Of a stretch of 64,000 bases of DNA, positions 10,580 through 26,690 are shown one piece after another; the stretch's first letter is position 1; each line of letters starts with the position of its first letter. Source of the stretch: Myxococcota bacterium (GTDB taxonomy: Bacteria > Myxococcota_A > Polyangia > Polyangiales > Houyiibacteriaceae). Both the position numbers and the translations under genes were made by a program. The DNA is taken from positions 1-64,000 of the forward strand of contig JANQQS010000139.1 of the NCBI GenBank assembly GCA_028284955.1. The letters run 5' to 3'. The notes beneath the pieces are model-generated. The model had not been told where the DNA came from, did no database searches, and saw nothing but the letters and a program-made list of their open reading frames with translations.

Positions 10580-12577
10580 CTACGGACAGCCATCGCTTGA
10601 CACTTCGAACGATACGAGGCGCGGGGTATCCGAAGCGATTGCGCCCAGTTGGTTCACGAGCAACGTGGCTTCGATTTCAAGAAACGGTGCATCATCCGCG
10701 CCAGCTTCTGACAACGCATCACTGAGCGACACCGGTGGCGCGTCGGGGGGGGTCGACGCCAAGCCGATGAACCTCGCTGCGCCCAATGCATCGCGCGACG
10801 CCGCGGTTCGGATACGAAACCGAATGGATGTTCGGTCGGGCGTTTCCGCAACCCAGCGAAAATCTCCCCAGCGCCCCTCGGTGCATCGTTCGACCACCTG
10901 CTGATACGTGCCGCGGGGCCGAGTCACCAGTCGTTGTTGAACGCCAGTCATATCCGAGTACGTGTACGCGCCAACGATGGTGTTTGCGACATTGGTTTCC
11001 ACCGTCGCGTCATTCAAACCAGCGCCAGGGGTGATGACCAATGCGCTGTCTTGAGCGATCGACCACACATTGCCGGTTCCATCGATGGCGATGCCTTTGT
11101 TTCCAAACCCGGGCGTTCCCCCTACGGTCGCGAACTGAGCCGGGTTGTCGGCGTTGATGCGGACGACGCCCCGAGCTATCTGCGCGCCCCAAATCCACCC
11201 TTGGGCGTCGGCCGCGATGCCGTGCACAGAGATTCCGACCCCGCCGGGACCAGACCCGCTGAGATATCCCTGCGACCAGCGGGAAGCTGGTGGAAGCGAT
11301 GGATCGTAGCGAAGCGCATTTTGGCCTCCAATCCATACCCGCTGTTTGAAATCGACGGTGATCCCGTAAGGCGTAATGGGCGCCGCGATACGCTGCTTGA
11401 TGCACGAATCGTCCGTGCACGCGGCACCACTGCACGAACCTTCGTCGACGCAACGCATGGTGTCCACCCGCCCGATCTCCTGAGACGCACGCGTCGAAAT
11501 CCACAAGTTTCCCGAGCCATCAAATGCGAAGCCATACGGGCGCACGGGTGATTCGGTGACGAACAGGACCTCGCCGGTCACCCCATCAAGCTTGGCGATG
11601 AGATTGCTGTCGTATCCCCCAACCCATACGAACTGTTGAAGGTCGCCGGTCGGGCCCTCAATATCCTGCGCCGCGATCGAGCGAATCCGGGTCAACCCGA
11701 ATGGCTGTAAATCCGTGAACCACAGCACGCAATCGTCTTGCCCCCAAGGCAAGTATCGGCCGTCTGTGGACGTCGTGATCGTTCCATCTCCGTTGGTGTC
11801 GGGGCAACGCGCGCCGCGACTCGAGATGCGCACCACGCTTCCCATCGTTGGACTAGGCGCCCGCGATCGTCGGCTCCCATCTTCCGCATACGCGATCCAC
11901 TCGCGGTTGCCGACGTACACATCGCCAAGCAGATTGACCGACGTACGGCTCGGGTCCATCGTCAGCCTGGGTCGCGCGGCAGGGAGCGGGCCGGCGGGGT
12001 CATTGCTGTCGCCCACCAAAAAACGACCGGTTTCTTGATGTGGCGCATCGGTGCGGAAGCGGGAAACGGTGCCCTCGGCGGAGTTCGCAATCCAGATCAC
12101 GCCCTCGCTTCCCGTGCGCTGGCCGAGCGTCACTGCGCCGCGGTCGTCCTGGGCTACGTCGATCGCGTGGTCCCCGTCGACTGAAAATGGACGTTCGGTC
12201 CCCACGCCGAAGCGAACACTGGTGCAGTTTCGCTGACAAGAAGCGCACGATGTAGACGTTCCGTTGTCCACCACGCCGTCGCAGTCATTGTCGCGACCGT
12301 CGCAGACTTCTTTCCCCGTCTGAACCGGATCGCCGTCGTCGCAATCGGGCCCTTGCGCACATCCCTCGCCAAAACCGTCGCCGTCGCTGTCTACCGCGCA
12401 ACCGGCGTGAGGTGCATCACATGGTTCGCTCGCACAACCCGGCGCACTGGGACAATCGTCCCCAACGCAGTCGCGGTTCGCCGAACCCATCGCGCCCTCA
12501 CCATTGCAGGACGCCAGTGCGACCGTGGTCACTCCCAAAAACACGCACCAACCCAGCTTCTGAAGCGACCACATCAT
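10580..12577 (-). CDS. Lipoprotein with MopE-like metal motif and NHL/Vgb-like beta-propeller
   Basis: The lipoprotein signal ends ALASC (residue ~24). Residues 35-115 are Cys/Asp-rich with DSDGDGFGEGC and DNDCDGVVDN, the acidic repeat type common in myxobacterial surface proteins. The rest (~130-560) carries propeller-like blades with WIANSAEGTVSRF, DVYVGNREW, FVWVGGYDSNLIAKLDG, GFAFDGSGNLWIST and GITVDFKQRVWIGG, resembling virginiamycin-B-lyase/NHL repeats. DTNGDGTITTS looks like a dockerin or EF-hand calcium loop. A ~100-residue C-terminal domain follows. It is paralogous to the lipoprotein at 24746-26512. The start has GGGAGTAGAG upstream. It is probably on the cell surface; ligand or substrate unknown. 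Confidence 0.82.
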   Translation of the reverse strand: MMWSLQKLGWCVFLGVTTVALASCNGEGAMGSANRDCVGDDCPSAPGCASEPCDAPHAGCAVDSDGDGFGEGCAQGPDCDDGDPVQTGKEVCDGRDNDCDGVVDNGTSTSCASCQRNCTSVRFGVGTERPFSVDGDHAIDVAQDDRGAVTLGQRTGSEGVIWIANSAEGTVSRFRTDAPHQETGRFLVGDSNDPAGPLPAARPRLTMDPSRTSVNLLGDVYVGNREWIAYAEDGSRRSRAPSPTMGSVVRISSRGARCPDTNGDGTITTSTDGRYLPWGQDDCVLWFTDLQPFGLTRIRSIAAQDIEGPTGDLQQFVWVGGYDSNLIAKLDGVTGEVLFVTESPVRPYGFAFDGSGNLWISTRASQEIGRVDTMRCVDEGSCSGAACTDDSCIKQRIAAPITPYGITVDFKQRVWIGGQNALRYDPSLPPASRWSQGYLSGSGPGGVGISVHGIAADAQGWIWGAQIARGVVRINADNPAQFATVGGTPGFGNKGIAIDGTGNVWSIAQDSALVITPGAGLNDATVETNVANTIVGAYTYSDMTGVQQRLVTRPRGTYQQVVERCTEGRWGDFRWVAETPDRTSIRFRIRTAASRDALGAARFIGLASTPPDAPPVSLSDALSEAGADDAPFLEIEATLLVNQLGAIASDTPRLVSFEVSSDGCP

Positions 12578-14997: not shown

Positions 14998-16038
14998 TTA
15001 GCTCGGGTTCAGTGATGCCGTCGCGGTCGCTACCGTCGCCCGGACGACCCGAACCGCGAACGGAAGATTCAAGCTTGCGACGTCGTCGACGCGGCCGTCG
15101 ACGCAGTGATAGTTGGGGTTTCGGAAGTTGGCGGAGTCTGAAATCACCACCGCAGGATAGTTGTGAAGCCAGAAACTCGCGTGATCGGAGCGAATAAGGT
15201 CAATAAAGAATACAGGTTGGAGCGTTAGATAGAGGGATACCGAGCGAAGGGATAGTTCGTTTGCAGCGCGCGAAAACGCGTCGAGCGTATCTTTGGTCGG
15301 AGTATTGCCCAGAATCGAGATGAAGTCGGCTCTGTTCTGATTGTCGACGACCTGCTTGGCTTGCTCAGGAAAGAGGATATCGAGCCCTGGCGGGATCTCC
15401 TGAGACCCGACCTCCTCGCTCATGAATCCGATCATTTCCAATACGTAGACCGCCGCGATTTCCTCCCCGCGCTTGTGCGCTCGCTCAGCGTACTCCCAAG
15501 AACCGATAAGCGGACGATGACGCAGAAACTCCTCTTCATCCCAGCACGCGACCTTCAATGTCCGCTGGTGATTCTGCGATGACAATGCGCGCGCGGCTTC
15601 TAGGACGCCCGCCACGCCGCTCGCGTTGTCGTCGGCTCCCGGACAGTTCTCAACACTGTCGTAGTGCGCAGAAATGATGACCGATTCGTCGGGTCGAACG
15701 GTGCCCATCTTCGTACCGATGACATTCACCCCGGTGCCATAGCCCTGTCGTTCCACCGCGAAACCCGAATCTTCAAACACCGCCGCGCATTTGTCTTGAA
15801 CGCGCTTCCAATGCGCGCTTCCCGGCGGCCTTGGCTCGGCCACAAACTGCAAATCAGCCGCGTATCGCTCGAAGCGCACCGAGTCGCTCGATTGCTTGGT
15901 GCCGCTTGGTGCCGACTCTTCCGGAGTCTGTGCGGTACACCCGAAACCCGCGGCCAAAAACCACCCGAGGAATATCCCGAAAGTCCGCTCAAAACCGCGA
16001 GCTTCCAAAACAAACGTTTTATTTCGGATATCAACCAT
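14998..16038 (-). CDS. Secreted M28-family metallopeptidase (lipoprotein)
   Basis: A signal region ends AAGFGC (residue ~34), predicting a lipoprotein. The M28 zinc ligands are in place: SAHYDSV (His-x-Asp), GADDNASGV (bridging Asp), WDEEE (catalytic Glu and ligand Glu), EMIGFM and RSDHASFW (last His). The fold is that of bacterial aminopeptidases and glutaminyl-peptide cyclase relatives, which trim peptides outside the cytoplasm. At 346 residues it fits one catalytic domain. The gene follows a membrane-protein gene by 11 bp and is probably co-transcribed with it. Confidence 0.88.
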   Translation of the reverse strand: MVDIRNKTFVLEARGFERTFGIFLGWFLAAGFGCTAQTPEESAPSGTKQSSDSVRFERYAADLQFVAEPRPPGSAHWKRVQDKCAAVFEDSGFAVERQGYGTGVNVIGTKMGTVRPDESVIISAHYDSVENCPGADDNASGVAGVLEAARALSSQNHQRTLKVACWDEEEFLRHRPLIGSWEYAERAHKRGEEIAAVYVLEMIGFMSEEVGSQEIPPGLDILFPEQAKQVVDNQNRADFISILGNTPTKDTLDAFSRAANELSLRSVSLYLTLQPVFFIDLIRSDHASFWLHNYPAVVISDSANFRNPNYHCVDGRVDDVASLNLPFAVRVVRATVATATASLNPS

Positions 16039-16049
16039 GAAAGAAGACT

Positions 16050-16850
16050 CTATTGAAGGCGGGTAAGTTCTCGCACGCGCCGTAGCGCACGATCGGCGCG
16101 CTGTGGGTCCACGCGAATCAACCGCACGGCTCCCTTAGGGAGAAACCTCAGCTCAAAAGCGACTTGCCCGCGACGTCCGGGAACGACGACCGAGAGCACG
16201 AGGTCGAGCAACGCTCCGCTACACACGACGCCCGCTCCCGCGAGCAAGAGCACTGTGTCGCCGGTGCGCACTCCATCGAAAAGCCACGTTCCCCCAAGGA
16301 GGATACCCACCGAGAGAGAAATGGCTCCCGCGAGCAAATGAAGGCCTGGATACCGAACCGAACGGCCAGCATAGGCAAGCGCGCGCACGAAGTATACGTC
16401 GTGCCGTACGCGCACTTTGCGGCCGAGCCACCTCGAGATCACGCGCACTTGGATGGTGGCTTCTTCCACCGTCAGGGTCGCGCTTTGCCGAACTCCGAGC
16501 AAAAACAACAAAGCCCGCGCCGCCCAAGCGAGGACGGCCCAGCCCGTGACAAGCCGGATCACTCCCAGAACTCCGTGCGGAGGCACCCTTCCCGCCACGC
16601 CCACAAGTGTCGGCGCCACCCGCACGGCAGACTCCGAATCGACCGATTCTTGGGGGGCCGATTCTTGCGGTGGCGCAGACTCTTGCGGGGCTGATTCTAA
16701 CTGCGGAGGTGGCGCGGGAACCGTGTCCGGGGCGGAGTCTGCCGTTGGTACCGAAACCGCTTCATCGTCCTCGCCTGATTTGGAGTTCGGGCCAGCTTCC
16801 GAAGACTCTGATTCTGGAAGTTCCCTCTGAGGCGCCTGGGTAGTACTCAC
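16050..16850 (-). CDS. Membrane protein with low-complexity acidic N-terminus
   Basis: Residues 1-85 are Ser/Pro/Glu-rich and repetitive (QESAPPQESAPQES), followed by four hydrophobic segments in two pairs (VIRLVTGWAVLAWAARALLF, LHLLAGAISLSVGILLGGTW, VLLLAGAGVVCSGALLDLVL). Between the pairs is a conserved-looking soluble loop (TIQVRVISRWLGRKVRVRHD). The C-terminus is basic and cytosolic. No transport or enzyme motif is recognised. It lies directly upstream of the peptidase gene. Confidence 0.7.
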   Translation of the reverse strand: MSTTQAPQRELPESESSEAGPNSKSGEDDEAVSVPTADSAPDTVPAPPPQLESAPQESAPPQESAPQESVDSESAVRVAPTLVGVAGRVPPHGVLGVIRLVTGWAVLAWAARALLFLLGVRQSATLTVEEATIQVRVISRWLGRKVRVRHDVYFVRALAYAGRSVRYPGLHLLAGAISLSVGILLGGTWLFDGVRTGDTVLLLAGAGVVCSGALLDLVLSVVVPGRRGQVAFELRFLPKGAVRLIRVDPQRADRALRRVRELTRLQ

Positions 16851-16913: not shown

Positions 16914-19301
16914 TTATTCGCCGGGTTGGGCTGCGCTCCCTGAGGAGGCAGCTTCCACCGGGGGTGGCGCTTCGGCCTCGGAAAGCTCGTTTTTCTTTTG
17001 ATCTTCCAATAGCCCGAGGCCAATCGCCATCGCTTTACGCGCTCGATCGAGCAGTTGCTGGTCGCTTGCGATTTTGCCTAGTGCCGCGGTGAGGCGAGCT
17101 TCAAGCTGGTTCGCCGTGGCTTCAAGCGCGGAAACTCTCGCCGTTTCCGTCGAAAGCTGCGTTTCGAGCTCCTCAGCACGGGCTGCCGCCGCCTTGTGTT
17201 GCGCAAACAAAGAATCGCGCTCTTCGGTTCGCGCGGCGAGGTCCGCCTGCAGCTGAGTGGTAAGTTCCTCGGTTTGCGCAAGCTTGGCCTGCGCGCGGTC
17301 CATGCCGCCCTCGGCATCTGCCAACTTCCGGCCGAGCAAGGCGAGCTCCCGCGAGTGCTCGTCGCTCTGCTGTTTGATCGCAGCCGCTTTTTCTTCTGTA
17401 AGCTCCTGCTCGCGCTTTTTCAGCGCGGCTTGATGCTCGCTGCGGGCGCTCTCCAAGTCTGCGTCTCGCTTCGCTGCTGCCTCCGCCGCACGCTGCGCGA
17501 GCTGCCCTTCCAAGTCTTCTCGGATCGCCGCGATCGCCGCGGACTGTGTTGCCGACGCCTCTTCGCGCAGTTGGTCCACCGCGGCTTTGTGCTCCGACGC
17601 CTGCTTTGACACAGCGTGCTCGTGTTCATCTTTGAGCCGCGCAATCGTCTCCTGATGTTGCGCTTCGCTTTCTGCTTTGGCGCGAACGTGCTCTTCTCGG
17701 GCTGCTTCGAGCTCCGCCTTGCGCGCGGTTCGCTCTGCTTCAAGCGCACTTTCTTGCTCGGAGCGCATCAGCGCGACGGCTTGCTCATGCTGCGAACGAA
17801 GCTCGGTCAGTGCGTCTTCCTTGGCTTGCTCGAGCTTGGCTTTTTCAGCCGCGTTCAGGCCCTTGAGCGAATCGACTTCCTCTTCGAGCCCTTTGGCTTT
17901 TCCTTCGGCTCGTTCTAAACGCGCCTTGAGATCGCTCGCCCGTTTTGCAGCCCCTTCCCGATCTTGTTCGAGAGCCTCCAGTTTCTCTTTGTCGGCCGCG
18001 GCTTGACGCTCCAGCGTGATCTGTTTGTCCTGAAGCTCGGCTGTCGCACGATCCTGAGAAAGGTTTTTGTCACGCAGTTCGATAAGCTGTTTGTCTCGAC
18101 CGCTGAGCTGGTCCCGGAGATCCAGAATCTCCTTGTCCTTGGTGTTCAATGCCTCGCGAAGGTCGAGAAACTCTCGACTCGATGCGCCGGCCGAAATGCT
18201 GGGTCGCGCGCGAAGCTCTTCAAGCTCCTTCTTGAGCTGATCTGCCTTGGAGGACCTTGCCCGCTCTTCGGCAAGCGCTCGTTCGAGCTCCTCAACCCGC
18301 GCAAGCGCGGCGCCAGCCGGCTCTGCCGGAGGAGCCGGTGTCGGCGGCGCGGCCGGTTGGGCGGCGTCTGGCGCAGCGATGCTCGAAACGACGGAATCTT
18401 CTTGCAAAGGCGACGGCTCGGGAGTGCTTTCGGCAAAAGAACTGGTCACGCTCGAGTCCTCCGCGCCGGTGGCCAACGTTCCAGAATCCAACGTTCCAGA
18501 ATCCAACGTTCCAGAATCCAACGCCGCGCTCGAATCTGCCGACTCGGACGCGGCGGGCTCCTCCATGCTCACATCGAAATCAGGTTCGATTTCCTCGATT
18601 TCAATATCGTCAAGCGACATGCTCTCCACGTCGTCTTCGGACACGTCGTCTTCGGACGCGCTCAGCTCGGACGCGCCGGCTTCACCCAGCGCTCCCCCGC
18701 CCGCGATCACATCGCCGGGCACGACGCCGCTTGTCTCTTCGTCCGCCGAACCGTTCGCCAAAGGACTGCTCGTTGCCTCCAAGGCGTCCCCCATCATCAA
18801 CGAGTCAAATGCACTTTCAGCAAACGCGTCGATCTCGGCGTCTACATCATCCCCAAGCGCGTCCTGTGATGGCACCGCGACATCGTCATCGAGGTCTACC
18901 GCGATCTCAGTAGAGACCGCCAACCCTTCGGGAAGGAAGGGTTGAACCCGCGTCATCAGATCGTCAAACGTCACCGGTTTGCGCACATACTCATCCGCAC
19001 GGGTACGGAGCTTCTTGTGTTGTTCGAAAATCTCCTCAGCGTTGCTGTCGCTCGACATGATGACCAGCGGGACGTTCTTAAGATCAGCGTTTTTCTTGAT
19101 CTTTTTGCATACAAGAAAGCCGTTCATGGTCGGCAGTTCGATCGATAGCAGAATCAAATCGGGCTTTTGGTCGGCCGCACGCTCCAGACCGTCGCCGCCG
19201 TCGGCCACCACATCCACTTCAAGTCCAAGCCCTCCAAAACCAGTTTGGAGTTCGCGAGCAAAGCCGGAGTCGGTCTCGAAGACGAGAATCCTCTGCGTCA
19301 T
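16914..19301 (-). CDS. FrzS-like pseudo-receiver plus long coiled-coil protein
   Basis: Residues 1-125 form a CheY-like fold (RILVFETDSGF, LPTMNGFLVCKKIKKNADLK, VPLVIMSSDSN, DEYVRKPVTF). The phospho-acceptor position is Ser53 (LILLSIELP instead of the usual LLD), so this is a pseudo-receiver, as in Myxococcus FrzS. Residues ~130-340 are an acidic Ser/Ala/Pro linker with a triple LDSGT tandem repeat. Residues ~340-780 are an unbroken coiled coil (ELRDKNLSQDRATAELQDK, LERAEGKAKGLEEEVDSLKG). FrzS acts in type IV pilus-dependent polarity and motility; a similar scaffold role is inferred. At 795 residues it is longer than FrzS, mainly through the linker and coil. Confidence 0.85.
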   Translation of the reverse strand: MTQRILVFETDSGFARELQTGFGGLGLEVDVVADGGDGLERAADQKPDLILLSIELPTMNGFLVCKKIKKNADLKNVPLVIMSSDSNAEEIFEQHKKLRTRADEYVRKPVTFDDLMTRVQPFLPEGLAVSTEIAVDLDDDVAVPSQDALGDDVDAEIDAFAESAFDSLMMGDALEATSSPLANGSADEETSGVVPGDVIAGGGALGEAGASELSASEDDVSEDDVESMSLDDIEIEEIEPDFDVSMEEPAASESADSSAALDSGTLDSGTLDSGTLATGAEDSSVTSSFAESTPEPSPLQEDSVVSSIAAPDAAQPAAPPTPAPPAEPAGAALARVEELERALAEERARSSKADQLKKELEELRARPSISAGASSREFLDLREALNTKDKEILDLRDQLSGRDKQLIELRDKNLSQDRATAELQDKQITLERQAAADKEKLEALEQDREGAAKRASDLKARLERAEGKAKGLEEEVDSLKGLNAAEKAKLEQAKEDALTELRSQHEQAVALMRSEQESALEAERTARKAELEAAREEHVRAKAESEAQHQETIARLKDEHEHAVSKQASEHKAAVDQLREEASATQSAAIAAIREDLEGQLAQRAAEAAAKRDADLESARSEHQAALKKREQELTEEKAAAIKQQSDEHSRELALLGRKLADAEGGMDRAQAKLAQTEELTTQLQADLAARTEERDSLFAQHKAAAARAEELETQLSTETARVSALEATANQLEARLTAALGKIASDQQLLDRARKAMAIGLGLLEDQKKNELSEAEAPPPVEAASSGSAAQPGE

Positions 19302-19474
19302 AGTGCTCCTTGAAAAGCGCCCACAAAGATTCAGCGGGTTCTCAATAGTAGTGGTGTACGGGCAACCGTGTCAACGGACTGAAGCGTCTCTGCCGCTCCC
19401 GTTTTCGGAAGGATCTGGAGATCTTACCCGGGCGAGGCCGACATCGAACGGCGCACGCGAACGGACCGTGCGAG

Positions 19475-20590
19475 TTACTGTTGCACCCGCGCAGATGCTG
19501 CAAGTCTGAGCAGTGAATCGGAGTCTAAATCGCCCGCGAAAGCATAGTTCAGCCCCGCATGACGACGAACCGGCACGGTATGGCCTCGCACATTCCAGTA
19601 ATCGACCTCCCGCGCGGCCACGTTTCTACGATACGCGCTTCGCGGCAGGTTAGGCGACTCGAATACAACCACCGTCATTCTCCGGCCATTGACGTGATAA
19701 TAGAGCGCGGCCGCGCGCCGCTCGCGCACGTTCGACAGTCGAGCCCCCACGAGCCGAACGTCCCCTTGGTCAAACACCGCAGGACGAACTGGAAACGCCA
19801 CTTTATCTCGAAAAAAAGAGGCGACTTGGTTCGGCCGCTCCGCCGACACATCTGCCGGCAGCTCACTGGAATGAAGACTGACGACGTCTTCAAAAATCGG
19901 CCGTGCGTTCATCATATGCGCGGCGCTTTGCGGCATGCGCGCGGCGGCTTCGACCTGCCTCGAAACACCCTGCCTCGAAACACCCTGCGCCGAAACGTTC
20001 CGAGCCAAATCATTGTTCGACAGGCTGCGTGCGGACACATTGCGTGGCGTGGTGACCGTCCACCGCGACGCATTCGGCGTGCGCTGAGCTAAGCCGCGAC
20101 GCCCTGGGTTTTCTTGCCCAACGCCCTGCAGCCCTGCGGAACCCTGATGCCCTGCGGAACCCTGATGCCCTGCGGAACCCTGATGCCCTGGAGAACCCTG
20201 TCCCGAAGAACCTTGGTGCAAAGATCCCTGCTGCGCAGGCCCGCGCTCCATGGAATCGCCAAACACAAACAACAGCAGCGCCGCGGCTGCCGCCGGCGTG
20301 ACATAACGCACGGGCATCGGAACGAATCGAACAAGCGGGGGACGCCCAGGCGCCCGCGCCAGCGCTTCACGTACACTTCGCTGCAGCTCTTCCGGTGCGC
20401 GAATATCACCCAGCGCGTCCCGAACTTGAGATCGAAACGCGCGCTCAAATCGAATCACCTCATCGCATTCCGCACAGGTGACTAGATGCCCCTCGAACTC
20501 GACCTGCGTTCCCGTATCGAGCTCGCCGTCCACAAAAGTTCCCGCGTGCCGACGAATCCACGCGCATTTGCAGCTGCTCGCCATCCCCAT
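19475..20590 (-). CDS. Anti-sigma factor with N-terminal zinc finger (zf-HC2)
   Basis: The N-terminus carries a ZAS-type zinc site (RHAGTFVDGELDTGT... GHLVTCAECDE, the H-x3-C-x2-C pattern), which binds ECF sigma factors. A membrane segment (YVTPAAAAALLLFVFGD) near residue 105-120 anchors it. The extracytoplasmic part includes a Gly/Gln tandem repeat (GHQGSA three times) and a possible sensor domain at about 225-370. The ATG at 20590 shares a base with the sigma-factor stop (TGATG), so the two are coupled. The role is to hold the upstream sigma factor inactive until a signal arrives. Confidence 0.9.
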   Translation of the reverse strand: MGMASSCKCAWIRRHAGTFVDGELDTGTQVEFEGHLVTCAECDEVIRFERAFRSQVRDALGDIRAPEELQRSVREALARAPGRPPLVRFVPMPVRYVTPAAAAALLLFVFGDSMERGPAQQGSLHQGSSGQGSPGHQGSAGHQGSAGHQGSAGLQGVGQENPGRRGLAQRTPNASRWTVTTPRNVSARSLSNNDLARNVSAQGVSRQGVSRQVEAAARMPQSAAHMMNARPIFEDVVSLHSSELPADVSAERPNQVASFFRDKVAFPVRPAVFDQGDVRLVGARLSNVRERRAAALYYHVNGRRMTVVVFESPNLPRSAYRRNVAAREVDYWNVRGHTVPVRRHAGLNYAFAGDLDSDSLLRLAASARVQQ

Positions 20591-21282
20591 CACATCGCCT
20601 CTTTGCGTCGGCGGTACTCGCTGAGCGATACCGGTTCGCCAGGAGCTTCTTCCTTCGCTGGCTCAGCTGGCGACTCCACAATCCCGAGCGACACCGCCTG
20701 CTCAATGAGCCTAGCTTTCATATCTCGGCGCGCACGGTGAAGCCGAGACATCACGGTGCCGATGGGGCAGCCCACAACATCGGCAATCTCTCGATACGAA
20801 AGCTCCTCCACATCGGCAAGCACCACCATCAGCCGTTGGTCCTCGGGCAACGCATCGAGCGCCTGCTGAATCTCTTGGGACAGCAGCCGTCGGTCGGCGT
20901 CGCCAATCGGATCACTGAGCCGTCGCATGGCTGCACGACTCATCACGCCTTCACCCACAGCCGCCCCCTGAGTGCCCTCCAGTGCCGCTCGCTCGCGCAC
21001 GCTTCGGCGGTAGCGGTTGATGAACATGTTGGTCTCGATACGAAGCAGCCACGCTTTCATGTTGGTGCCCGCTTCAAACCGGTCGTAGTAACGATAGGCG
21101 CGCAGCAGCGTATCTTGCACGAGGTCTTGAGCGTCGCTGGGTGAGCGCGTCAAACGAAGCGCGGTCGCGTACATGGAGTCGAGGTGGGGCAAGGCTTCGG
21201 CTTCAAACTCTTTTCGGAGATTCGAAGCGCGTCGGCCAGAAGCCGAGGTCTCGCGGTCCGCGCGTGTGGAAAACCATCCCAT
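20590..21282 (-). CDS. RNA polymerase ECF-family sigma factor
   Basis: Region 2 is at about residues 27-95 (LDSMYATALRLTRSPSDAQDLVQDTLLRAYRYYDRFEAG, NMKAWLLRIETNMFINRYRR). Region 4 is at about 140-195 (LPEDQRLMVVLADVEELSYREIADVVGCPIGTVMSRLHRARRDM) with a clear helix-turn-helix. A ~35-residue acidic/basic C-terminal tail extends past the usual end. Translational overlap with a zinc-finger anti-sigma factor fits the standard ECF module. It lies 42 bp downstream of the PhaR-like gene and may be transcribed with it. Confidence 0.94.
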   Translation of the reverse strand: MGWFSTRADRETSASGRRASNLRKEFEAEALPHLDSMYATALRLTRSPSDAQDLVQDTLLRAYRYYDRFEAGTNMKAWLLRIETNMFINRYRRSVRERAALEGTQGAAVGEGVMSRAAMRRLSDPIGDADRRLLSQEIQQALDALPEDQRLMVVLADVEELSYREIADVVGCPIGTVMSRLHRARRDMKARLIEQAVSLGIVESPAEPAKEEAPGEPVSLSEYRRRKEAM

Positions 21283-21324: not shown

Positions 21325-21987
21325 TTATTTCCGCTCGTCCGATTTTTTTTCCGGTGGATCTTTCTTTCCCAGCCCATCGGACGCACCGCCGTCTGATTTC
21401 TTGGCGCGTCGAGTAAGATTCACGAGATTGCTTTCCAGCTCTTCGATGCGGTCTTGCAGCCGCCGGACTTCCGACTGGAGCTGCTGAATATGCCCCGAGG
21501 CACTCGAAATTAGTGCCCGAACCCGGTCGTCCGCGAGGCGTTGGAGCTCGTCCCAGGCCTCTCGAGGCGCAGTGACCATCGCCCGAATTCCATCATTTCC
21601 AGATTTCGGCGCGCTGGCATCGTCTGAGTCGTCCGGATCCAGCTTTTCATCCCGTTTTGGCACGAGCTTGGCAATCGGTCCGCCGCGAAGCGTCGCGAGC
21701 AATCGTTCGCGGCTCTCGTAAATGAACTCCCGCACGCCCATCACCGAGCGCGCGCCGTTGCCGCCGTTTTTCTCTTGCTCATAGATAATTTGAGCGAGCG
21801 TGACGTTGGTCAGGTCTTCCTTGGACTCGTTGTCGATGATTTGAACGTCTTCGCCATCGCGGACAAAACCCGCGATTTTCTGCAGCGTCACGTAGCGGCT
21901 TGCCCTCGTGTCATAAAGCTTACGATTCGCGTAGCGCTTGATGATCCGCGGTTCTTGGCTGTCGCCGTTCTGAGAAGCGATATTCAC
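21325..21987 (-). CDS. PhaR-like polyhydroxyalkanoate regulator-type protein
   Basis: Residues 14-75 match the PHB/PHA accumulation regulator DNA-binding domain ([40 protein letters not shown]). A helical accumulation domain and a predicted coiled coil follow ([20 protein letters not shown]), ending in a Lys/Asp-rich tail. PhaR proteins bind PHA granules and phasin promoters. No phaC or phasin gene is within the window, so the target here is unproven. It heads a probable unit with the ECF sigma and anti-sigma genes. Confidence 0.88.
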
Positions 21988-22108
21988 TGGCGTCCTAGTG
22001 CAGTGTACCTGCGTCGTTAGCTCGGCTCAACGCGCTGCGTCAAGGAACGGCTCACGTCAGGCGTTTTACGAAGTGGAACTTCTGTTCAGAATCGGGAACG
22101 ATACAAAC

Positions 22109-22846
22109 GTGGCATCCGTATCCCAGCAAGCAGCGGCATTGGCGATTCGGCTCAACGCGTGCGCGGACGTCCGCATTCGAATCCAGTACCTCCGAAACGA
22201 AATTCGTTCTTTGGAAGCCGACGCGCTCGCTGACATGGTCACCGTGGTCGCTGGCAGCGCCGAAGCCGGCGAGCCGCACCACGCGAATTTGTTGCTCGCG
22301 GTGGCGGTCGCACTCGCCGACCCTTCCCTGACATCGCTACGACGCGCGGCCGCCGACCTAGCGCGAACTCGGGGACAGGATGATGCAGCCCGCTTGCTCG
22401 ATGTCCCAAGCGAAGATCCACACGCGCTTCGTCCTCGTCGCACCAAGACAGAAACCGGTCGACCGCTCACCCTCGGCGAACGAAAGTCGCTCGCGCGTCG
22501 TCGGGAACGAAACCTTCTGGCACGAGCGATTCGCGATCCCCATCCCGACGTCATCCGAATTCTGCTCACCAACCCGGCGTTGACCGAAGACGACGTAGTT
22601 CGGCTGTGCGCCGGTGCGCACACCCCGCCTTCGGTGCTCCGGGAAGTATTTCGAAACCCAACCTGGGTCGTCTGCTATCGGGTTCGGCGAACCATCGTCA
22701 AAAACCCGCAATGCCCGGCGGATATCGCGCTGCAGCTGGCGACCCTCCTCACCGCCCCCGACGCTCAGGAAATCGCGCAAACGCTCCGCTTGCCGCTCGA
22801 GCTACGGCAAGCCTGCGCACGCCGCTCCCGAGGTGTGATTCACTGA
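22109..22846 (+). CDS. Helical-repeat protein of unknown function
   Basis: The frame is open from an ATG at 21998, but that is only 10 bp from the start of the divergent PhaR-like gene. The GTG at 22109, with GGGA 12 bp upstream, leaves room for promoters and starts at VASVSQQAAALAIRLNACAD. The start is uncertain; 22073 is another candidate. The C-terminal half has short helical repeats of the kind LLARAIRDPHPDVIRILLTNP, VLREVFRNPTWVV, IVKNPQCP, resembling leucine-rich-variant or HEAT-like repeats with NP turns. A protein-binding scaffold is likely; no enzyme motif is seen. Confidence 0.65.
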   Translation: MASVSQQAAALAIRLNACADVRIRIQYLRNEIRSLEADALADMVTVVAGSAEAGEPHHANLLLAVAVALADPSLTSLRRAAADLARTRGQDDAARLLDVPSEDPHALRPRRTKTETGRPLTLGERKSLARRRERNLLARAIRDPHPDVIRILLTNPALTEDDVVRLCAGAHTPPSVLREVFRNPTWVVCYRVRRTIVKNPQCPADIALQLATLLTAPDAQEIAQTLRLPLELRQACARRSRGVIH

Positions 22847-23137: not shown

Positions 23138-23355
23138 TCGATTCTCTCCTGCACGCGACGTTGCCGCACCCTACACGGTAAAATGCCGTCCGGAAAGCCG
23201 CAACCTGGACACAACTTCGTTGCGATTATGCGCCATTGATGATTTGGCGACGTCCCAGAAAGATCAGCCCCGAAAGACCACGCTCTTTTTCCATATATGC
23301 CGAAAATGCATAGCTCATGATAAAAATGAGCCCTTCATGTGCAAAAGGTTCTCAA

Positions 23356-24162
23356 ATGTGCGCCACCGATCGTTCCCCTACCCCTTTTTCCGGACTTCCC
23401 CAGACCGAGCTGCATCGAGTTCAGTACGTCGTATTCGACGTAGACGATACGGTCACATCGAACGGACGACTCGAACGCGTGGCGTTTGACGCGATGCATC
23501 GTCTTCACGAAGCAGGTGTCTCCCTCGTCGCGGTGACCGGGCGACCCTTAGGCTGGGCCGATGTGTTCGCGTTGCAATGGCCCGTTCTGCTCGCGGTAGG
23601 AGAAAACGGCGCGGGATGGAGTTTTCGCAAACGAGGGCGCCTGCACGCTGGATACTTTGATGCCGAGAACGTCCGAGCTACGCATCAGCGCACGCTGACC
23701 ATAATTCGCGAGCGCGCCCACCGCGACGTTCCCGAGGTTCCGCTCTCCGAAGACCAGCCCGCCCGACGCTGCGACCTGGCATTCGACATCGGCGAACATC
23801 ACCATGCCTCGCCGGATCAACTCGCGCGCCTATCGTCGATTATTCATTCAGAAGGAGCACGGGTGTCGGTGTCCAGCGTGCATCTCCACGCCGTAGCCGG
23901 CGCGTGGGACAAGGCTCAAGGCGTGGTCCGCGCGGCTCGCACGGCGCTGAACATCGATTTGGATCAGACTCGAGAACGCGCTGTCTTTATCGGAGACAGC
24001 GGAAACGACGCCGCCGCGTTTGGCTTCTTCCCCTATTCGGTCGGGGTCGCGAATGTGCGCGCGCACATTCATTCGCTTGAGCATTTGCCCAAGTACGTCA
24101 CAACACAGGAACGGGGAGCAGGGTTTGCGGAGGTTGCAGACCGAATACTCGGCGCTCGATAG
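23356..24162 (+). CDS. HAD-superfamily hydrolase, Cof/mannosyl-phosphoglycerate phosphatase-like
   Basis: HAD motif I is VFDVDDTVTSNG (nucleophile Asp), motif II is VAVTGRP, the conserved Lys is WDKAQGV and motif IV is FIGDSGNDAAAF. A type IIB cap lies between motifs II and III. The family dephosphorylates sugar phosphates or similar small molecules in the cytosol. The ATG at 23356 has AAGG upstream and is preferred to 23317. The C-terminus (YSVGVANVRAHI, ERGAGFAEVADRIL) matches this subfamily's ending. The actual substrate cannot be read from the sequence. Confidence 0.88.
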   Translation: MCATDRSPTPFSGLPQTELHRVQYVVFDVDDTVTSNGRLERVAFDAMHRLHEAGVSLVAVTGRPLGWADVFALQWPVLLAVGENGAGWSFRKRGRLHAGYFDAENVRATHQRTLTIIRERAHRDVPEVPLSEDQPARRCDLAFDIGEHHHASPDQLARLSSIIHSEGARVSVSSVHLHAVAGAWDKAQGVVRAARTALNIDLDQTRERAVFIGDSGNDAAAFGFFPYSVGVANVRAHIHSLEHLPKYVTTQERGAGFAEVADRILGAR

Positions 24163-24745: not shown

Positions 24746-26512
24746 CTATTGGAGAGCTTTCGAACACGCGTAGGACACAGAAAGTGAATTCAGTCTCGGA
24801 CTAACCGTCGATGGGTCACCTCCACGCCTGCTCTGTAGCGCGGCGTCGATTTCCAGGTATGGAGCGTGATCCGCTTGCATGGCCCTGAGCGCGTCTCGGA
24901 TCGACGCAGGTGCTGCATCAGGCGGCACTGATGCGAGGGGCAGCCATTCCGCCGAGGCGAGCTCCGCATCCGAATCAGCGACGCGGAAACGAAATGAAAT
25001 CGAGGTTCCTTCCGGAACGTCGGCGTCCCATTCAAGTTGCCGCCATTCGGTCTCTTCTCCTTGGTCGTCCTTGCACCCGCGAAACGTACGTCGATAGTTG
25101 CCTATCGGCACCACGGTGGTGCGTGCGCCGGTCGCGAGAAGGAGCTGGAGGCCGGTCATGTCCGAGTAGGTATAGGGCAGGGTGAGAGACGTCGCGACAT
25201 CGGGGTTAACCGCGACATCGTTCAAACCGGCTCCTGGCGTCAACACCAGCGCACGGCTCTCGAGCAACGCGATCGACCAAACCTTGCCGTCGGTGTCGAC
25301 GGCGACGCCTTTGTTCGAGTAGCCACTGGTGCCAGGGACCACCGCGGCTTCGTCGGGGTTGTCCGCGTTGACGCGAAGCACTCCCGTTGTAAGCGCGGCT
25401 CCCCATATCCAGCCCGCGCCATCCGCCGCGATGCCGTGCACGATTGCGAACGTGGTTCCCGCTATCGTGGTGGGTCGTTTCTGAATGATTTCGCCAGTGC
25501 TCGGGTCGTATCGCTTAATCGTTGGGCCGCCCGTCCATACGCGTTGTTTCGCATCAACGGTAATCCCGTAGGTCGTGTCGGGAAGCGACACAAGGTCGGT
25601 GGGACAATTGCTAGCCGAGCAGGTGTTGGTGTCGACGCTCCCGATCTGGTTTGCACCACTGGACGCGATCCAAAGTCGTCCGCTGCCATCAAGCGCAAAA
25701 CCGTAGGGGCTGAGCGGAACTTTCGCGTGCAAAAGCACCTCACCGGTAAGTCCATCGAGCTTGAAGATCCGCGAATCCGTATGCGCCCCCACCCACACGT
25801 ACTGCTTGATCGTGCCGTCCGGCTGTTCGACGTCTTGAGCCGCTACGGCGCGTATCTTTCGGCCGGGCGCACCAGGATAACGAGCAAGGTCGGTGTTCCA
25901 CGCAACGCAATCGTCTTGACCCCACGCGAGCACCTGTTCGCGACCATCCGATGTCGTGACCGATCCGTCGCCATTGGCGTCTTCGCAAAGCCCACCCAAC
26001 GCCGAGATTCGAGTGACGGTGCCGCCATCACGGTTGCCTACGTATACGTCGCCCAACGTGTTGACGGAAGTTCGGGAGGGGTCGTTGCCGCGACCGGATG
26101 GTCCGGTCATGTATCGTCCGAGTTCTTCAAACGTCCGGGTATCAAACTTTGAAATGCTTCCTTCGCTCGTGTTCGCGATCCAGATCAGGTGAGAAGCGAT
26201 CGAGCGAGCGATCAGCACGATGGCGCCGTCTTCGACCGTCACGCCACTCGATCCGGACGAATCGGGATCAAACGCGTTCGGAGTCGCGGCACCTACGCTC
26301 ACGCGGCATACGGGAGTGCCATCCTCATCCTCGGAGCATACCTCTTCGTTTTCACCTGCTTGGCTCGCCCCCCCGCCCGGGTCATGCTCGTCAGCAACCC
26401 TAGAGCCGGGCAAGACATCTTTTGCGCATCCAGATGCCAGCAGAAGCACCAACGCAAGCGAGTCCAGTGTTGAGATAGAAAACGAACGGAGAAGGGGGTT
26501 TTTGGTACGCAT
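24746..26512 (-). CDS. Beta-propeller lipoprotein, paralogue of the one at 10580-12577
   Basis: The frame opens at 26680, but the ATG at 26512 starts a lipoprotein signal ending LLLASGC; this gives 588 residues. Blades repeat WIANTSEGSISKF, DVYVGNRDGG, YVWVGAHTDSRIFKLDG, GFALDGSGRLWIAS and GITVDAKQRVWTGG, near-identical in order to its paralogue. Both share the segment VLAWGQDDCVAWNTDL and a calcium-type loop (DANGDGSVTTSDGR). This copy lacks the DNDCDG domain near the N-terminus. A similar ~100-residue C-terminal domain closes it. It is probably surface-exposed, with no known ligand. Convergent with the preceding gene, 30 bp apart. Confidence 0.82.
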   Translation of the reverse strand: MRTKNPLLRSFSISTLDSLALVLLLASGCAKDVLPGSRVADEHDPGGGASQAGENEEVCSEDEDGTPVCRVSVGAATPNAFDPDSSGSSGVTVEDGAIVLIARSIASHLIWIANTSEGSISKFDTRTFEELGRYMTGPSGRGNDPSRTSVNTLGDVYVGNRDGGTVTRISALGGLCEDANGDGSVTTSDGREQVLAWGQDDCVAWNTDLARYPGAPGRKIRAVAAQDVEQPDGTIKQYVWVGAHTDSRIFKLDGLTGEVLLHAKVPLSPYGFALDGSGRLWIASSGANQIGSVDTNTCSASNCPTDLVSLPDTTYGITVDAKQRVWTGGPTIKRYDPSTGEIIQKRPTTIAGTTFAIVHGIAADGAGWIWGAALTTGVLRVNADNPDEAAVVPGTSGYSNKGVAVDTDGKVWSIALLESRALVLTPGAGLNDVAVNPDVATSLTLPYTYSDMTGLQLLLATGARTTVVPIGNYRRTFRGCKDDQGEETEWRQLEWDADVPEGTSISFRFRVADSDAELASAEWLPLASVPPDAAPASIRDALRAMQADHAPYLEIDAALQSRRGGDPSTVSPRLNSLSVSYACSKALQ

Positions 26513-26642
26513 CGCTGCGGAAGCAGTGCACGACGCATGCCACGAAAAACCCATAGATTTCTCGCTGAGCGAATCGTGAACCAAGGAGCATCGACCCCAC
26601 TCGCAGGTCAAAAGCCCCAACCACGTGACGCGTGTCCATCGG

Positions 26643-26690
26643 AAAAATAAACGCCTGCGCCCGCCGTGGCGGAATGCCACGACGGGTTCA
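26643..26690 (-). terminator. Intrinsic terminator of the RNase P RNA gene
   Basis: Read on the minus strand, the 3' end of the RNase P RNA is followed by a GC-rich hairpin (CCCGTCGTGGC, short loop, CGCCACGGCGGG) and then GCAGGCGTTTATTTTT. This is a standard rho-independent terminator. Confidence 0.75.

Follow-up and report, generated by a model that had tools for sequence, protein, structure and literature searches.

On sequence and phylogenetic grounds, the 795-residue protein presented above is an orthologue of FrzS and a new member of a published family. Its receiver carries serine in place of the phospho-acceptor aspartate; the loss of this aspartate in FrzS/AglZ is already published and mostly known. 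A role as a phosphorylation-independent polar scaffold appears fairly probable by analogy with Myxococcus xanthus, and such a scaffold would most likely serve type IV pili. Taken alone, the protein is one more orthologue, and the parts deserving a second look are the conservation of its gene neighbourhood and the loss of the receiver in the sister genus g2. Coordinates of all features are collected in Table 1 and refer to the window, i.e., the whole stretch of 64,000 nucleotides that was analysed.

Table 1. Features at and around frzS, with positions in the window and the basis of each assignment.
Feature	Position	Strand	Basis
frzS orthologue, 795 aa, ATG start	16914..19301	-	ORF reading; FrzS matches in relatives
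Pseudo-receiver, aa 1-123	18933..19301	-	Pfam Response_reg, FrzS PDB match, AlphaFold2 model, 2i6f fold
Ser53 codon TCG, phospho-acceptor position	19143..19145	-	codon read directly; Asp in 0/140 distinct receivers carrying both His95 and Tyr105
His95 to Tyr105, aligned with the essential pair His92/Tyr102 of M. xanthus FrzS	18987..19019	-	sequence reading, PDB alignment, PMC1974792 (accessible part)
Linker motif EIDAFAESAFDSL, aa 156-168	18798..18836	-	strict pattern; present also in receiver-less relatives
15-bp tandem repeat x3.4 (LDSGT x3), linker	18473..18523	-	repeat search
Long helical stretch, presumed coiled coil, ~aa 350-765	17007..18254	-	composition and hydrophobic periodicity
C-terminal motif LLDRARKAMAIGLGLLEDQ, aa 750-768	16998..17054	-	column conservation, 84 rows
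Promoter-like site TTGACA-N18-TACTAT, upstream of frzS, between anti-sigma gene and frzS	19345..19374	-	motif search
zf-HC2 anti-sigma factor with hydrophobic stretch	19475..20593	-	Pfam; 173 bp before frzS
ECF sigma factor, 4-bp overlap with anti-sigma gene	20590..21282	-	Pfam; ortholog search
PHB_acc_N regulator, often beside sigma gene	21325..21987	-	Pfam; neighbourhood survey
Protein without a Pfam match, by eye a membrane protein, 63 bp downstream of frzS	16050..16850	-	gene reading
M28 peptidase, 11 bp further downstream	14998..16038	-	Pfam; gene reading

The Pfam Response_reg domain was matched at residues 5-120 (E 2.7e-16), and nothing besides the receiver was found in the whole 795-aa product at E <= 0.05. 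The best sequence matches of the receiver in the PDB were FrzS receiver entries and fusions carrying the FrzS receiver (2gkg, E 2.7e-25), the first non-FrzS match following at E 2e-14. An AlphaFold2 model of the receiver (pLDDT 94.3) matched 2i6f at 40% identity, with TM scores of 0.85 (model) and 0.89 (target); one M. xanthus row was part of the AlphaFold2 alignment, so the agreement in fold is not an entirely independent result. Against a profile from which it had been omitted, M. xanthus FrzS scored 114.6 bits, and Asp53 receivers reached at most 91.6 bits against a nearly identical profile that included it.

In an unrooted tree of 88 receivers, labelled by residues 53 and 105, one branch (support 97/90) separated 61 FrzS-like from 27 ordinary receivers. 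The same branch was recovered in 96% of 200 bootstrap trees and required one state change, while many inner forks on the FrzS side were weak. For this tree, only every fourth row above 145 bits was retained, and rows below 45 bits or shorter than 100 residues were dropped. The sequence-only reading had named FrzS as the closest known design and proposed a receiver phylogeny with it; the best PDB match by both sequence and fold agrees with this, as does the placement of the FrzS-like rows, M. xanthus FrzS included, on one side of the branch. The distribution is consistent with a single old loss of the acceptor aspartate in the family. A FrzS match at E <= 1e-15 was present in 28 of the 37 genomes searched, including the window's own, in which a single FrzS-like receiver was found. 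As for virus-borne relatives, 23 stretches fitted a pattern and none encoded a relative.

Direct reading of the receiver gave E9, T10, D11, S53, E55, S83, F92, H95, Y105, and K108. The serine noticed earlier at position 53 was confirmed by codon TCG (19145-19143). Glu9/Asp11 and Lys108 had likewise been described as kept; this was correct for Lys108, but it is Thr10, and not Asp11, that occupies the position of the second metal-binding acid. The acceptor aspartate and the intact acidic metal-binding pair of a canonical receiver are both missing here (Ser53, Thr10).

The residue survey covered 163 distinct receiver rows, 107 of which scored above 145.5 bits and are referred to as near rows. In these, residue 53 was Ser in 67, Ala in 25, Thr in 15, and Asp in none. 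Asp53 was also absent from all 140 distinct rows carrying both His95 and Tyr105. These two sets provide the non-circular statements, as the 34 distant rows had been selected as non-Asp at position 53. His95 was found in 107/107 near and 33/34 distant rows and Tyr105 in 141/141, while four more rows between 74 and 145.5 bits carried Asp53, none of them with His95. In the Thr10 column, which corresponds to CheY Asp13, Asp was present in 19 of 22 Asp53 receivers, in 0/107 near rows, and in one of the 34 distant FrzS-like rows.

According to the accessible part of PMC1974792, M. xanthus FrzS has Ala53, carries Ser10 at the CheY Asp13 position, and binds neither Mg nor Mg-BeF3; its His92 and Tyr102 are needed, whereas Asp55 is dispensable. 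Because M. xanthus FrzS has Ala53 and no Asp53 occurs among the 140 receivers with the His/Tyr signature, Ser53 is a family trait. The sequence-only reading had allowed for a sequencing error at codon 53 of an otherwise ordinary receiver. This was rejected as practically impossible: nothing was found in its favour, Asp53 is missing from all near rows across many assemblies, TCG differs from the Asp codons GAC and GAT at 3/3 bases, the second active-site acid is lost as well, and the tree places the protein with FrzS. Phosphorylation of Ser53 by a Ser/Thr kinase in place of Asp phosphorylation is very improbable. Although Ser or Thr occupies the position in 82/107 near rows, Ala is found there in the other 25, and Ala, Cys, Arg, Gly, or Asn in 25/34 distant rows; M. 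xanthus itself has Ala53, and its Asp55Ala variant showed no motility phenotype (PMC1974792, accessible part). Ser53 would rather be a structural filler than a phosphorylation site.

Several unusual receivers were noted during the survey. Three loci of family f36 (L200, L203, L205) encode FrzS-like receivers with Gly53 and Met55 that keep His95 and Tyr105, in frames of 794-876 aa. In genome G253, one protein (L175:12005-12841, +) contains two pseudo-receivers, each with Ser53, His95, and Tyr105, about 4 kb from a FrzS gene. An Asp53 receiver fused to DUF4388, which we take to be the PATAN domain, adjoins frzS in a Polyangiaceae-type locus (L114:3276-4787, +), and similar rows adjoin frzS in two more loci of this type (L058, L116). 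PATAN proteins have been reported to co-occur with SgmX (PMC11580455, accessible part).

The receiver is followed by an acidic linker from residue 124 to about 340, in which motif EIDAFAESAFDSL was detected by a strict pattern in 30 of the 114 rows that reach 280 aa or more. The tandem repeat described earlier in the linker is present yet small; besides the 15-bp unit of Table 1, another 15-bp unit (x2.1) lies at 18627-18657. The subsequent helical stretch is Pro-poor, with a hydrophobic power of 8.2 at a period of 3.5 residues; in 1000 shuffles the mean was 4.0 and the maximum 7.2, none reaching the observed value. Since the power at 3.6 residues was as high (8.3), a long amphipathic helix is demonstrated, while a coiled coil is not proven by periodicity alone. 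Motif LLDRARKAMAIGLGLLEDQ was recovered by a loose pattern in 70/84 near and 12/32 distant rows and missed in the remaining 14 and 20, respectively, against a background of 84 of 1329 genes in the same loci, in which the FrzS genes are still included. A short tail ends the protein after the helical region. The earlier statement that this copy is longer than FrzS holds against M. xanthus, where the coiled coil comprises 235 residues (PMC4546325, accessible part), but not among relatives, whose median length of about 741 aa (over 120 rows, which include truncated sequences and a few that are not FrzS) makes it of ordinary length.

Upstream of frzS, the window carries an ECF sigma/anti-sigma pair, and a sigma orthologue in the same position and on the same strand was found in 20 of 28 genomes that carry FrzS, the window genome included. 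These 20 comprise the window's own genome, 13 of the 14 family loci that have 1.8 kb or more of upstream sequence, and six order loci, the latter corresponding to 6/16 when five further order genomes are counted. Of the remaining eight genomes, two (G009, G028) have upstream sequence that is too short. Two loci from the five further order genomes (L207, L209) have the sigma/anti-sigma pair near frzS, though on the other strand. At class level, 6 of 11 loci with at least 1.8 kb upstream showed the sigma link, and the anti-sigma gene was found by tblastn in 0/11; at phylum level the link was seen in 1/17 loci. The Pfam-less protein and the M28 peptidase downstream of frzS gave no tblastn match at 1e-8 in other frzS loci. 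Gene calls for neighbourhoods were rough and served solely for reading the gene surroundings, and the locus set holds some genomes twice.

The promoter-like site was not significant in the window alone, with one found in 6.2 kb and 0.8 expected. Across loci, however, a site with the same 18-base spacer and at least 8/12 matches was present in 25 of the 27 with upstream sequence. Initially 22 loci were used, 21 of which fitted as best site (200 shuffles, mean 1.2, maximum 4); of the six left out, one was without upstream sequence, four of the other five fitted, and L052 did not. As with the synteny counts, these numbers include related genomes, with relatedness not removed. This conserved site before the gene suggests that frzS probably has its own promoter.

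A functional tie of FrzS to the sigma/anti-sigma pair, e.g., as a cytoplasmic partner of the anti-sigma factor or as a target of the sigma factor, would accord with the 20/28 same-strand linkages and with the sigma link in 6/11 class-level loci. It is considered unlikely, as the site just before frzS is of sigma-70 type in those 25/27 loci, and the link is missing in most Polyangiaceae-type loci, where frzS persists, and in 16/17 phylum-level loci. In M. xanthus, the ECF sigma gene rpoE1 is linked to motility. The single paper found to cover both rpoE1 and frz contained, in its accessible part, no statement on their proximity, and no mention of a sigma/anti-sigma link or of the promoter-like site at frzS was found in the accessible portions of the FrzS literature searched, which was mostly open-access. 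The repeated link raises the question of coupling between polar motility control and envelope sensing in the order.

Further genes were observed around the cluster. Two large proteins, alike by eye and with weak beta-propeller matches, flank it in the window (10580-12577 and 24746-26680, both -). A Pfam-less protein (21998-22846, +) and a HAD phosphatase (23317-24162, +) are found repeatedly beside the cluster, for the most part in divergent orientation, in 24 and 16, respectively, of the 147 loci where frzS was matched, some genomes being counted twice among the 147.

In genus g2 of the same family, a FrzS-like receiver at E <= 1e-15 was found in 2/10 genomes and absent from 8/10. Four of these eight (G017, G019, G021, G022; loci L245, L247, L248, L253, L254) contain a receiver-less frzS, where frames of 569-571 codons match the 559-residue G021 protein over its full length. 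Identity to the G021 protein was 86% in G017, 70% in G019, 76% in G022, and 100 in G021, the query itself. For the receiver-bearing sisters G001 and G011, identity over residues 2-559 was 66% and 64%. Three loci were retrieved together with flanking sequence (L245, L247, L248); in each, the frame is situated downstream of the sigma gene, and the receiver profile detected no receiver at the frame, the best score of 5.1 bits falling elsewhere. The proteins of G021 and G017 start with MSEDN, aligned with an internal MSDEN of the receiver-bearing sisters, and G019 and G022 have MSDD at the same start position.

The receiver-less genes retain the linker motif, the helical region, and the C-terminal motif, and TTGACA-N18-TATTCT precedes them in 4/4 cases. 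Their dN/dS values for three pairs were 0.12, 0.15, and 0.18, one pair having a dS of 1.4, near saturation. No match was obtained in the remaining four g2 genomes, and the contig of one of them (G018) ends just past the anti-sigma gene. Loss of pili as the cause of receiver loss was rejected, given that PilT and PilM matches above the cut-off are present in all eight receiver-negative g2 genomes.

M. xanthus loses S-motility when the FrzS receiver is deleted, and FrzS is then found at the lagging pole (PMC1974792, accessible part), so the receiver-less g2 genomes are natural counter-examples. Since the frzS gene of these genomes keeps promoter, motifs, and helix and has cleanly shed the receiver, the coiled coil and two short motifs would make up the core of FrzS. 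That the pseudo-receiver may be a detachable adaptor, a partner-binding add-on to this core that certain lineages do without, is a proposal to which we give even chances from sequence comparison. The natural deletion makes the function of the pseudo-receiver testable. No mention of a receiver-less FrzS was found in the accessible portions of the FrzS literature searched, mostly open-access.

In the proposed role as a polar scaffold, the coiled coil would oligomerise and set the protein at the pole, while SgmX, a TPR partner exposed by MglA-GTP, would be bound by the alpha3-beta4-alpha4 face of the pseudo-receiver, with type IV pili active at one pole as the presumed outcome. All three steps are modelled on M. 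xanthus. There, the coiled coil is enough to bring FrzS to the pole and SgmX is a binding partner of the pseudo-receiver (PMC11580455, accessible part), and SgmX binds the alpha3-beta4-alpha4 face after MglA-GTP binds SgmX (review PMC12632262, accessible part). Compared with 22 mixed Asp53 receivers, conservation was higher in helix 3 (near 3.78 and distant 3.03 vs 2.86 bits) and helix 4 (3.48 and 2.27 vs 1.93 bits), though only slightly so for the distant rows; in strand 4 (3.56 and 2.45 vs 3.29 bits) the near rows hardly differed and the order was reversed for distant rows; near-row conservation partly reflects the relatedness of the rows.

The window genome holds adjoining candidate mglB and mglA genes, whose products match solved MglB (E 6.9e-67) and MglA (E 5.1e-105), respectively, presumably the M. 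xanthus proteins. It also contains four PilT matches, one PilM match, pilN, pilO, and secretin genes after pilM as read by eye, and three chemoreceptor matches. Pilus-cluster synteny, used to look for SgmX, led to TPR proteins near pilM in two other genomes (G007, G021), none of them recognisable as SgmX. A second, longer MglA-like GTPase of 375 aa is encoded in the window genome about 1 kb from mglB/mglA on the opposite strand (L232:7158-8285, +).

In one FrzS-bearing, 98% complete genome (G024, locus L052), where frzS adjoins sigma/anti-sigma genes, no PilT match at E <= 1e-60 was found and PilM matched only below the cut-off; FrzS need not, therefore, always serve pili. This genome favours a family member serving gliding or another polar process, like AglZ, instead of type IV pili, as does the view of Guzzo 2015 that the single copy of non-Cystobacterineae lies near the ancestor of FrzS and AglZ (PMC4546325, accessible part). 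Such a role is nevertheless doubtful here, with PilT and PilM present in the window genome and such single copies described as more similar to FrzS in the same study. A scaffold for type IV pili is retained as the most likely function.

In comparison with known systems, the protein shares with M. xanthus FrzS (2gkg, 2i6f) the Asp-less pseudo-receiver, the buried His, the switch Tyr, the coiled-coil region, and the fold (TM 0.85). It differs in Ser53 vs Ala53, Thr10 vs Ser10, and Glu55 vs Asp55, and in a longer helical region; Ser83 is present, whereas M. xanthus FrzS is without the CheY Thr87 side chain at that position (PMC1974792, accessible part). The window frzS adjoins an ECF sigma/anti-sigma pair. 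Paralogous architecture and the lack of a functional phosphorylation site are shared with M. xanthus AglZ, which, in contrast, is a duplicate from the ancestor of Cystobacterineae with a 1076-residue coiled coil (PMC4546325, accessible part). One FrzS-like receiver was found in the window genome, with FrzS as its best match among solved structures, and the protein may be closer to FrzS than to AglZ. Other characterised pseudo-receivers often carry DNA-binding outputs, whereas in the window protein a coiled-coil region follows the pseudo-receiver. With pseudo-receivers in general, it shares the PF00072 fold without phosphotransfer residues (PMC12632262, accessible part).
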